Shown here: piece by piece, positions 50,176 to 54,142 of the stretch | Layout: each line of letters begins with the position of its first letter | Numbering within the stretch: position 1 is the first letter of the stretch | Assembly: GCF_011603255.1 (NCBI RefSeq) | Contig: NZ_JAANCM010000005.1 | Span: forward strand, 186,001-250,000 | DNA from: Ferranicluibacter rubi | GTDB lineage: Bacteria; Pseudomonadota; Alphaproteobacteria; Rhizobiales; Rhizobiaceae | Direction: 5' to 3' | DNA length: 64,000 nucleotides | Translations under genes and position numbers: made by a program | The notes under the pieces: generated by a model | The model's input: the letters and a program-made list of their open reading frames with translations, nothing else | Told to the model about the DNA's origin: nothing | Database searches by the model: none

Positions 50176-51126
50176 TCACGCAGCTGATGACTCGTCCCTT
50201 TTTTCAACGACACGCAGGCACCAGGCTGAAAAGTCGTCGATCGCCTGCTCCCTGATTGTGTCGTTCAGCGTCTCATGGCGCGCGCCCGGGTAAATGGTCG
50301 CCGTGACCTCTCGCAGCCCTGCTGTTTTCATCCGGGCCTGCAGCCACTGCATGGCCTTGCCCTTCTCTGTGGCCGGATCTTCTCCGCCGCCGACAAGGTT
50401 GATCGACATGCCGGGCGGCAACTGGCGGAGGCGGTCAGGCTGGGCGCCCGCGTAGCTCATGCGAAACAGGTCGATCCAGAGCGAAACCGTGACGTCGAAT
50501 CCACAAAGCGGGTCGGCGATATAGCGATCGACCTCTGCCGGGTCGTGCGAAAGCCAGTCCAGATCCGTTCTACGCGCCGGTATCGTCCGCGCCCACGTTC
50601 CAAACGAGAGGCGGTCCACGAGCGGGCTCGGAACGTCCGAGCCTTTTAACATGCGCTCGATGGCCAGCAATCCCTGCCCGAACCGGCCGGCGAGGCCCGG
50701 GTTGAAGTTGGCGTTCCAGACGGCGAGGCAGTCATAGAGCCCGGGCTCTGCTTCGGCTGCATTCAATGCGATCAGGCCCCCCATCGAGTGCCCGAAAAGG
50801 ATGACGGGAAGACCGGGATGACGTGAAACCGCATGGTTCCTGACGGCGGCAACATCCGCCAGAACCGCGCCGATCCCGTCATCGGGCGCAAATCTCCCCT
50901 GCAGGTGCGCAGCACTTCGCGTGGCGCCATGCCCGCGATGATCGTGCGTGTAGACCGCAAAGCCACGCGCCGCCATGGCCGCCGCGAAACTCTCGTACCG
51001 CCGAGCATGCTCTGCGAGACCATGGTTGATCAGAAGCACGCCGCGCGTCCCGCTGCTTGCAGCCATGTGGTAGAGCGCAAGATCCGCCCCGGACGGACTT
51101 GCGAGCCGACCCTCCTCGAATGCCAC
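50176..51126 (-). CDS. Alpha/beta hydrolase, monoacylglycerol-lipase/PldB-like
   Basis: 316 residues from a GTG at 51126, which has GGGGAGG eight bases upstream; the in-frame ATG at 51201 has no ribosome site. The nucleophile elbow is FGHSMGG, the oxyanion region INHGLAEHARRY, and the catalytic His is in YPGARHETLND. The sequence matches the serine aminopeptidase S33/lysophospholipase group. It likely cleaves an acylglycerol or lysophospholipid in the cytoplasm. Transcribed alone, towards the DUF442 gene. Confidence 0.88.
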   Translation of the reverse strand: MAFEEGRLASPSGADLALYHMAASSGTRGVLLINHGLAEHARRYESFAAAMAARGFAVYTHDHRGHGATRSAAHLQGRFAPDDGIGAVLADVAAVRNHAVSRHPGLPVILFGHSMGGLIALNAAEAEPGLYDCLAVWNANFNPGLAGRFGQGLLAIERMLKGSDVPSPLVDRLSFGTWARTIPARRTDLDWLSHDPAEVDRYIADPLCGFDVTVSLWIDLFRMSYAGAQPDRLRQLPPGMSINLVGGGEDPATEKGKAMQWLQARMKTAGLREVTATIYPGARHETLNDTIREQAIDDFSAWCLRVVEKRDESSAA

Positions 51127-51288
51127 TGTCACCACCTCCCCAAGCCGTCCCAGACCGCCACTATCCCGCCCGGAAACGGGTTCTGTCAATATGAGGATCA
51201 TCTAAAAAATTCGCCACCGTACATAAATCGTGCTTGCGTTATTCCTGTTTTAGTCCTCTATTGATCATGGTTTGTTCTGGAGGTTGAG

Positions 51289-52341
51289 ATGACGTCAACA
51301 TATATGGAAATGATGGTGATCGCTCTGAAGCGAGGGCTGCGCACCTTTCGTCCGGTGCTGGTATCCTGCGCCATCATCACGGCAAGTTGCGCTGCGTATG
51401 ATGTGCATGCCGCGGAGTTGGCTGCTCCTCAAGCGGCCATCGGACGGAATACGCCCCATCTTGCCGACAGCGCATCTCCTATCGGGGTATCCGGGATCCT
51501 TCCCAGCGCGACGCCAGCTCTCCCCGTTGCAGCGGAGACCTCACCGCCAACATTTGTTCGGATACAGCCTGATCCCTCCGTCACGCAGAAGGGCGAGACA
51601 CGTCAGTCGGCGCCCGGCAAAACCGGCTTCGTCCTCGGTCTCAGCTGGCTACCCGCCTTTTGCGAAACCAGAGCGAAGCGGCCTGAATGCGTTGGGCAAA
51701 GTACCGAGCGCGCGGACGGGACGCAACTGACACTCGCGGGGCTCTGGCCGGTCCGCAACAGCTTCTGCAAGGTCTCCGAGGCGCTACAGGCCGAGGATCG
51801 CAAGCGCGACTGGTTAGCCTTGCCGGCCGTACCACTGTCGGCGGATGTCGCGACCAAGCTTGCCGCTTCCATGCCGGGTACGGCCTCGGGCCTCGACCGT
51901 CATACATGGCTGCGCAGCGGCACCTGCCAGGTTCTCGATCCCGATGCGTATTTTTCCCTGCAGATCCGCTTGCTGGAGGCGGTCAACACGTCGGTTGTCG
52001 GCGCGCTGTTTCGAAGCCGGATTGGCAGCGACATCACCGAGGCCGAGGTTAAGGCGGCGTTCGATCAGAGTTTTGCGGCCGGAGCCGGGGATCGTATTCG
52101 TCTCCAGTGCCGGCAGGTCGGTGACCGTATGCTGGTCACGGGGCTGACGATCGGTCTCTCCGCGACGATGGAAGAGACGTCGGATCTTGGGGCCCTGATC
52201 CATGCGGCGGCGCCGACGCGTTCGCGCTGCAGTGGTGGCGTGGTGGATGCAGCCGGCCGGGTTCGTCCCGAACGTCAGGCCGTTGCTGGGCAAATGGCGC
52301 CCGGGGCGAGCGGGGCTGCCAAGCTGGTTGACGTTCGCTAG
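51289..52341 (+). CDS. Exported RNase T2 homologue with lost catalytic residues
   Basis: 350 residues; GGAGG five bases before the ATG. A basic N-terminus and hydrophobic segment (VLVSCAIITASCAAYDVHAAE) suggest export. A variable linker (about 45-112) precedes an RNase T2-like domain beginning GFVLGLSWLPAFCE. The first catalytic box, normally HGLWP, is AGLWP with Ala150. The second, normally HEWxKHGTC, is HTWLRSGTC: His205 is kept, but the Glu is Thr206 and the second His is Ser210. Cysteines in FCE, PEC, SFC, GTC, LQC and SRC are kept, so the fold is likely intact. It should not cleave RNA by the usual mechanism; a binding or inhibitory role is inferred. Confidence 0.75.
   Translation: MTSTYMEMMVIALKRGLRTFRPVLVSCAIITASCAAYDVHAAELAAPQAAIGRNTPHLADSASPIGVSGILPSATPALPVAAETSPPTFVRIQPDPSVTQKGETRQSAPGKTGFVLGLSWLPAFCETRAKRPECVGQSTERADGTQLTLAGLWPVRNSFCKVSEALQAEDRKRDWLALPAVPLSADVATKLAASMPGTASGLDRHTWLRSGTCQVLDPDAYFSLQIRLLEAVNTSVVGALFRSRIGSDITEAEVKAAFDQSFAAGAGDRIRLQCRQVGDRMLVTGLTIGLSATMEETSDLGALIHAAAPTRSRCSGGVVDAAGRVRPERQAVAGQMAPGASGAAKLVDVR

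Positions 52342-52492: not shown

Positions 52493-54142
<1,650 letters not shown>

Follow-up and report, generated by a model that had tools for sequence, protein, structure and literature searches.

The gene at positions 51289-52341 of the window, that is, of the whole 64,000-nucleotide stretch of DNA analysed here, encodes a T2-fold protein, called T2-A below, that lacks the catalytic residues of the T2 ribonucleases, and it belongs to a real, clade-wide and maintained bacterial T2 pseudoenzyme, found in a branch of soil- and root-dwelling bacteria with Sinorhizobium among them. As for what this protein does, the reading favoured here with moderate confidence is that T2-A is a DNA-damage-induced, exported pseudoenzyme, predicted to bind RNA without cutting it. 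A new, non-cutting job is probable because the residues that cut are lost, strong selection has been kept, and induction by damage is likely. A first-pass annotation had already proposed a maintained pseudoenzyme from this single copy; its clade-wide extent, the intact positional orthologues, a second T2 family (T2-B), the linker and a LexA-like site are new. The locus is made of the following parts.

50176-51201, minus strand: gene of a divergent alpha/beta hydrolase (Hydrolase_4), conserved upstream neighbour of T2-A
51233-51261, plus strand: candidate rhizobial sigma70 promoter, CTTGCG-N17-CTCTAT
51263-51277, plus strand: LexA-like site GATC-ATGGTTT-GTTC, 11 nt before the start codon of T2-A
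51279-51283, plus strand: GGAGG, ribosome-binding site of T2-A
51289-52341, plus strand: T2-A, a T2-fold protein without T2 catalytic residues, presumably exported; 350 aa, ATG start
51289-51414, plus strand: putative Sec-type signal peptide region, residues 1-42, read from the sequence and the genus alignment
51415-51612, plus strand: Pro/Ala/Ser-rich linker of T2-A, from the genus alignment
51613-52338, plus strand: T2 domain with C-terminal tail, the modelled part of T2-A
51736-51738, plus strand: box I (CAS I) position, His replaced by Ala150, codon GCG
51901-51927, plus strand: box II (CAS II), HTWLRSGTC, residues from H205, from the sequence and alignments
52141-52143, plus strand: Gly285 of T2-A, from the column comparison with intact orthologues
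52493-54142, plus strand: ABC-F ATPase, conserved downstream neighbour of T2-A, with two ABC_tran stretches and ABC_tran_Xtn in Pfam; EttA-like is the name we presume for it

As first described, the frame is full length and has a good ribosome-binding site; it runs for 350 amino acids without interruption. Its signal region, read by eye from the sequence, consists of KRGLR, a hydrophobic stretch and VHA-A. A lipoprotein signal was considered and rejected because the candidate lipobox Cys is replaced by Trp in the orthologue L040. The T2 homology, originally recognized from the two boxes, has been borne out by alignment and by structure prediction. The Pfam Ribonuclease_T2 profile (PF00445) matches T2-A at E 3.7e-9, above the family cut-off, and E. 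coli RNase I is its PDB sequence match (E 6e-15). An AF2 model of the domain, built with 47 sequences, reaches pLDDT 89 and pTM 0.84, with low confidence in the last 24 residues, and a Foldseek search with it returns RNase I first (E 1.7e-13, TM 0.70) and the plant RNase-related protein CalsepRRP at rank 14. Profile match and model place T2-A in the RNase T2 family as a fold; the score against the NCBIfam ribonuclease I model (E 7e-20, 71 bits) is far below the equivalog cut-off of 436.

In the accessible part of PMC7399046, three His and one Glu are named as critical in T2 RNases. Alignment to E. coli RNase I sets A150, T206 and S210 of the window protein opposite the catalytic His, Glu and His, and this backs the altered boxes read at first sight, AGLWP (GCG at 51736) and HTWLRSGTC. 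Within box II, His205 is kept, and Glu, Lys and the second His have become Thr206, Arg209 and Ser210; a weak alignment to a plant T2 RNase (1vcz, E 0.014) has H205 opposite His and R209 opposite Lys. The features of a T2 enzyme that the window protein retains are the first His of box II and the disulphide-type cysteines, and those that it lacks are the box I His and the Glu, Lys and second His of box II; catalysis is presumably absent. His205 is dispensable for the fold, since E. coli RNase I and the intact orthologue L101 have Tyr there.

Over the degenerate clade, the picture is one of a kept scaffold and a variable active site. The cysteines noted as conserved in this copy (125, 134, 160, 213, 274 and 314) are present in 66/66 distinct sequences. 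Position 206 is Q, T, M or V and position 210 is S, N, Y or H across the same 66 sequences, and position 150 carries five different replacements, found in 10/66. H205 (62/66), W153 (62/66) and an aromatic residue at 159 (66/66), which we take from work on RNase Rh to be binding residues, are largely retained; L043 (G006) is additionally without W153. Five domain columns that are at least 85% conserved in the intact set are flagged as lost in the degenerate one, namely 206, 209, 210, 285 and 319, together with the tail positions 324-325, which rest on few sequences. Residue 285 is Glu in 96% of the intact orthologues and Gly in 66/66 degenerate ones. Because Glu is kept there in most intact T2-A and T2-B proteins, and also in E. 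coli RNase I, Glu285 may belong to the active-site network. The mean net charge of the degenerate domains is +3.7 in the window's genus, +1.4 in Ensifer/Pararhizobium and +5.7 in the others, as against -3.1 for 79 intact domains; this basic charge could follow lineage-wide composition.

An orthologue of T2-A occurs in 7/7 genomes of the window's genus, and none has a stop. Five of them have Ala as the box I residue (AGLWP in four, AGLRP in one), another has Val and the last one Gln; box II reads H[TMV]WL[RM][SN]G[TS]C throughout the seven. Beyond the genus, HGLW[PR] with HQWL[RQ][SN]GTC is found in Ensifer and Sinorhizobium (S. meliloti, S. fredii, S. medicae, S. americanum and others) and in the Pararhizobium-type records (R. 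giardinii, R. herbae, Pararhizobium antarcticum). Both boxes are intact, as HGLWP with HEWxKHGTC or HEWxRHGTC, in the R. mesoamericanum, R. altiplani and R. cauense group, and also in Allorhizobium, Agrobacterium vitis, Aureimonas and Jiella. The search for orthologues with the same substitutions, recommended at the outset, has therefore a divided outcome: the box II loss is shared by several genera, but intact orthologues exist in others. The idea that this copy alone is degenerate is refuted by the losses across the genus and beyond it. Names of records do not match these groups: some of those labelled "Rhizobium sp." belong to the window's genus, others to the Pararhizobium-type or the near-degenerate group.

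These counts rest on several samples. A family-wide search with T2-A gave matches in 165/247 genomes, a number that mixes T2-A and T2-B; 100 family stretches were read, with T2-A in 89, and the scan of named genomes used the best 80 of 393 relatives. "Intact" means a T2-A with both His and HGLWP, so that L120, with Gln in place of Glu, and L122, with Val in place of Lys, count as intact. One sequence, L078 (G060), with both His, Glu replaced by Gln and Lys by Met, was assigned to the degenerate set by hand; its box II, HQWLMHGTC, has the second His, kept or regained. A near-degenerate form keeps both His and has R, M, I, V or T for the Pro of HGLWP; it is represented by eight rows (L200, L057, L213, L216, L219, L055, L058 and L073), and one further Pro-lost sequence, L116, falls outside the clade. 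The eight Pro-lost domains have a mean net charge of +2.6. Gly285 was also seen in 4/8 of these rows and in at most about 4% of intact T2-A. Among the best 30 of 180 order-level genomes with a match, no degenerate T2-A was found outside the window's family; the 29 non-window loci of this set, 8 of them from that family, keep both His.

The order hydrolase, T2-A, EttA-like is present in the 7 rows of the genus, in 49/49 Ensifer/Pararhizobium rows and in 19/20 of the R. mesoamericanum group, the stretch of the remaining row, L192, ending early. Since this gene order is common to dead and intact forms, they are positional orthologues. For the same reason, the neighbours are uninformative on any new role: functional coupling of T2-A to the hydrolase or to the EttA-like ATPase was considered and discarded as not specific, for the intact loci share both.

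Despite the lost catalytic residues, purifying selection on the T2 domain is strong. Under GY+F3X4, omega of the domain is 0.093 in the window's genus (6 sequences, the divergent L045 excluded), 0.061 in Ensifer/Sinorhizobium (31 sequences) and 0.106 in the Pararhizobium-type group (18 sequences); the intact R. mesoamericanum group (19 sequences) gives 0.075. When omega is set to 1 and kappa to its estimated value, lnL falls by 200 units in the genus, 1227 in Ensifer/Sinorhizobium, 548 in the Pararhizobium-type group and 890 in the intact R. mesoamericanum group. Pairwise dN/dS of the domain within the genus is 0.09-0.16 for the 15 pairs without L045 and 0.32-0.50 for the pairs with it. The N-terminal linker (residues about 43-108) evolves near-neutrally: pairwise dN/dS of signal peptide plus linker is 0.45-1.23 in the genus pairs with a value. 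Relaxed selection across the whole gene, which the first-pass annotation had named as a point against itself, is thus absent from the domain, but the signal peptide and linker do look relaxed. Its central claim, a maintained pseudoenzyme and not decay, stands: residue loss, purifying selection and clade-wide loss are all observed, with catalytic losses in 7/7 genomes of the genus and omega of 0.06-0.11 in three degenerate groups.

The history of these losses was followed on a tree of 64 chosen rows, 42 of them degenerate, from which the catalytic columns had been left out. The degenerate state requires 1 change on this tree, with a branch support of 49/85 and recovery in 47% of 200 bootstrap trees, so that a single ancient origin of the pseudoenzyme is compatible with it; His210 changes 2 times, Glu206 once and the box I His 3 times. 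Box II Glu, Lys and His were probably lost once, in the ancestor of the degenerate clade, and the box I His probably later, three times, in the window's genus, in L092 and in the pair L115/L121. The 8 Pro-lost rows adjoin the degenerate ones, and it is possible that they represent an early or intermediate stage of degeneration.

The second T2 family, T2-B, was found by profile searches in 26/26 genomes with a degenerate T2-A versus 2/56 with an intact one; the Fisher test of this link, 2e-19, ignores kinship and is therefore overstated. It is also present in 7/8 genomes with a Pro-lost T2-A (the eighth is that of L116, outside the clade), and near-degenerate genomes, where searched, also hold it. 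The named genomes, partly the same ones, give 10/10 for degenerate, 0/8 for intact and 1/1 for Pro-lost T2-A. The T2-B boxes, HGLWP and H[QE]WRKHG, were read in 19/26 surveyed and 10/10 named degenerate genomes; the loci L225 and L230 were counted by profile match only, their boxes not matching the regular expression. In the window's genome, T2-A and T2-B share 29% identity over residues 73-231 and lie on different contigs. T2-B may have made the catalytic activity of T2-A dispensable. Its presence is insufficient for the loss, since two genomes hold T2-B with an intact T2-A, and the association may reflect one event or kinship because a single clade unites the degenerate rows with most of the Pro-lost ones. 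T2-B proteins often have Gln for the box II Glu (HQWRKHGTC), with both His and Lys kept (L132-L139, L221-L268), and a crude pattern finds a lipobox-like motif near the frame start in several of them.

The promoter region adds a regulatory side to the story. The putative operator of T2-A is one change from GTTC-N7-GTTC, the alphaproteobacterial SOS box according to the accessible parts of PMC9578287, PMC3323433 and PMC12700426, and because of this mismatch it is of the weaker kind. It was evaluated with a LexA matrix of 36 sites from recA and lexA of 12 genomes, none of them a T2 site; recA contributes GTAC-N7-GTTC, and lexA two sites, GTTC-N7-GTTC and GTTC-N7-GTTT. The cut was set such that fewer than 0.05 sites are expected by chance in the 450-nt upstream stretch, and the background is conservative in that the T2-A sites are part of it. 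The window site scores 10.9, with 0.03 such sites expected by chance in 450 nt. The interval 51195-51295 contains no direct repeat of at least 8 nt, as expected for 4-nt half-sites. A scan for E. coli-type promoters gave no plus-strand match at the T2-A promoter, and the candidate at 51233-51261 relies on what we take to be the rhizobial sigma70 consensus.

Upstream of T2-A, a matrix site is present at 89/94 clade loci: 6/7 in the genus, where the site of L045 scores just under the cut, 49/49 in Ensifer/Pararhizobium, 9/10 in other degenerate loci, 7/8 in Pro-lost and 18/20 in intact R. mesoamericanum-group loci, L199 (Agrobacterium vitis) being counted in the Allorhizobium set. The figures elsewhere are 0/7 for T2-A of Allorhizobium and relatives, 4/52 for other intact T2-A and 0/8 for T2-B; the upstreams of six neighbour genes give 6/269 at a score of 9.7 or more, taken over 250 nt versus 450 nt for T2-A and with starts set at the first Met of the frame. 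In Ensifer/Sinorhizobium, many of the sites are GTTC-N7-GTTT, like the second box of lexA itself, and most of those in the R. mesoamericanum group are exact GTTC-N7-GTTC. The matrix is an imperfect guide, since the exact sites of L198 and L217 score low on it.

Genome-wide pattern counts point in the same direction. The pattern GTTCNTGNWTTGTTY, chosen after the T2 and lexA sites had been seen, has 5 matches in S. meliloti and 0 for the controls, located at lexA, T2-A, a splB-like gene and two further places; G133, the genome with the T2-A of Rhizobium sp. CF122 (L204), has two matches, at T2-A and the splB-like gene. SplB and S. meliloti parE are SOS genes in the accessible part of PMC3323433. 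In the window's whole genome, GWWCNNNNTTTGTTC has 9 matches versus 2 for the reversed control, so that some of them must be chance; with gene names assigned by reading of sequence, they lie at recA, ssb/uvrA, recQ, a uvrD-like helicase, a ParD-like antitoxin gene, T2-A and three others. The T2-A site is a candidate operator of the GTTC-N7-GTTC class at the promoter, just upstream of the start codon, as in the alphaproteobacterial LexA regulon. T2-A is probably SOS-controlled through this putative operator and switched on by DNA damage. Its presence in intact, near-degenerate and degenerate loci is the reason why the SOS-type site seems older than the loss of catalysis, which it would have outlived.

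How might these elements fit together? T2-A would descend from an RNase T2 whose intact form the Rhizobium mesoamericanum group still carries at this locus. The ancestor of Ensifer/Sinorhizobium, the Pararhizobium-type group and the window's genus would have lost Glu, Lys and His from box II, probably in one event, and the window's genus would later have lost the box I His as well; T2-B, with intact boxes, could supply RNase activity. Upon DNA damage, LexA would leave the putative site at 51263-51277 and T2-A would be made, exported and its disulphides oxidised. Its cleft, with H205, W153 and the aromatic residue 159 in a more basic domain, may hold RNA or a nucleotide without cutting it. That the SOS response induces such a non-cutting, exported RNA- or nucleotide-binding T2 protein across Ensifer, Sinorhizobium, the Pararhizobium-type group and the window's genus is put forward tentatively; if true, cleavage of RNA was never needed, or is needed no longer, for the SOS role of the T2 family.

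Other explanations deserve to be weighed against this one. Instead of RNA, the target of T2-A might be a protein, with T2-A binding or regulating a T2 RNase, either the T2-B of its genome or a foreign one; regulation of active proteins by their inactive paralogues is a familiar theme (accessible part of PMC5201418), and a degenerate T2-A is always accompanied by T2-B (26/26). Such coexistence is, however, also expected if T2-B merely made the activity of T2-A dispensable, and the distance between the two proteins, their location on different contigs, the lack of a LexA-like site before T2-B (0/8) and the two family genomes outside the clade that pair T2-B with an intact T2-A all make a protein partner unlikely. 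Another possibility concerns the operator, which could be part of an ordinary promoter or belong to another regulator, with T2-A kept for an unrelated envelope role. The window copy is mismatched and coincides with the presumed start of transcription, the sequences of a clade have a common history, and the matrix has the flaw seen with L198 and L217; against this stand the many Ensifer/Sinorhizobium sites with the form of lexA's second box, the mostly exact sites of the R. mesoamericanum group, and the S. meliloti count of 5 matches against 0 in controls, lexA and the splB-like gene included, and we regard this reading as rather improbable.

There is far less to be said for a T2-A that is still an RNase, with chemistry reduced or rerouted, for example, via His205 and Arg209. 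His205 is kept, the change from Lys to Arg preserves the charge, and migrated catalytic residues are possible in some pseudoenzymes (accessible part of PMC10211241), but both catalytic box His and the Glu are gone from the window's protein, and positions 206, 210 and 150 vary over the clade, unlike a selected active site; residual cleavage is very unlikely. A decaying gene, open by chance, is hardly credible. The near-neutral signal peptide and linker and the loss of W153 in L043 would suit decay, but the domain omega of 0.093, the absence of stops from the 7/7 genus orthologues, the six Cys in 66/66 sequences and the sharing of the residue losses by several genera do not; the selection tests and the clade-wide losses rule out decay, and a sequencing artefact as well. 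Binding of RNA without cleavage, by a protein made upon DNA damage, is the reading retained.

T2 pseudoenzymes exist in plants, where CalsepRRP has lost its catalytic function and is yet kept, in a storage role. CalsepRRP (Calystegia sepium, PDB 1jy5) has a T2 fold like that of T2-A; it is a plant protein of independent origin, whereas T2-A is bacterial, clade-wide, located where the intact orthologue lies and preceded by an SOS-type site. RNase T2 proteins that have lost catalytic residues and presumably taken on new functions are also found in protostomes (accessible part of PMC4136927), but those are animal duplicates, and here it is the positional orthologue that is degenerate and another T2 family that is intact. 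The closest solved relative in both fold and sequence is E. coli RNase I (PDB 2ea1, 2pqy, 9iot), which has the same layout of boxes and cysteines; RNase I is an active enzyme, while in T2-A both catalytic His, the Glu and the Lys have been replaced in nature. In the 9iot chain, Phe occupies the two positions at which the window protein has lost its His, and the title of the entry describes a hibernating ribosome with an RNase I mutant; by analogy, this suggests that a T2 protein without the two box His can hold an RNA-rich target. Within the family, the T2-A proteins of R. mesoamericanum (L205) and R. altiplani (L206) share the locus, the fold family and the position of the LexA-like site with the window's copy, and differ in their intact HGLWP and HEWIKHGTC; no T2-B was found in these two genomes.

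In the accessible parts of PMC9578287, PMC3323433 and PMC12700426, no T2 RNase is named among the LexA regulon genes, and the word "ribonuclease" does not appear in the main text of PMC3323433. Likewise, a search of open-access full texts found neither a bacterial T2 pseudoenzyme nor an SOS-controlled T2 protein. With a LexA-type site common to both forms, intact and dead, the SOS response would gain an exported T2 protein; if the favoured reading is right, the label "ribonuclease" is misleading for the T2-A gene of Ensifer/Sinorhizobium. Intact, graded and dead states coexist at one locus in named, cultivable genera, among them that of the laboratory model Sinorhizobium meliloti, and therefore the turn from RNase to pseudoenzyme can be traced step by step.

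A few further observations concern LexA-like sites elsewhere. The divergent alpha/beta hydrolase gene starts 61 nt from the site in the interval 51201-51289 and may for this reason share LexA-type control. Upstream of three intact T2-A genes outside the clade (L091, L069 and L077) there are reverse-oriented LexA-like sites, of the recA type, GTAC-N7-GTTC, in L091 and L069; they may represent independent SOS control. Four other loci with the pattern (L338, L339, L343 and L344) belong to the window's genome: the GATC variant precedes the gene of a SirB1-like exported protein and also the ParD-like antitoxin gene with its ParE-like toxin gene, and the remaining two matches are found near glmM and before a small ORF, all gene names being read from the sequence.
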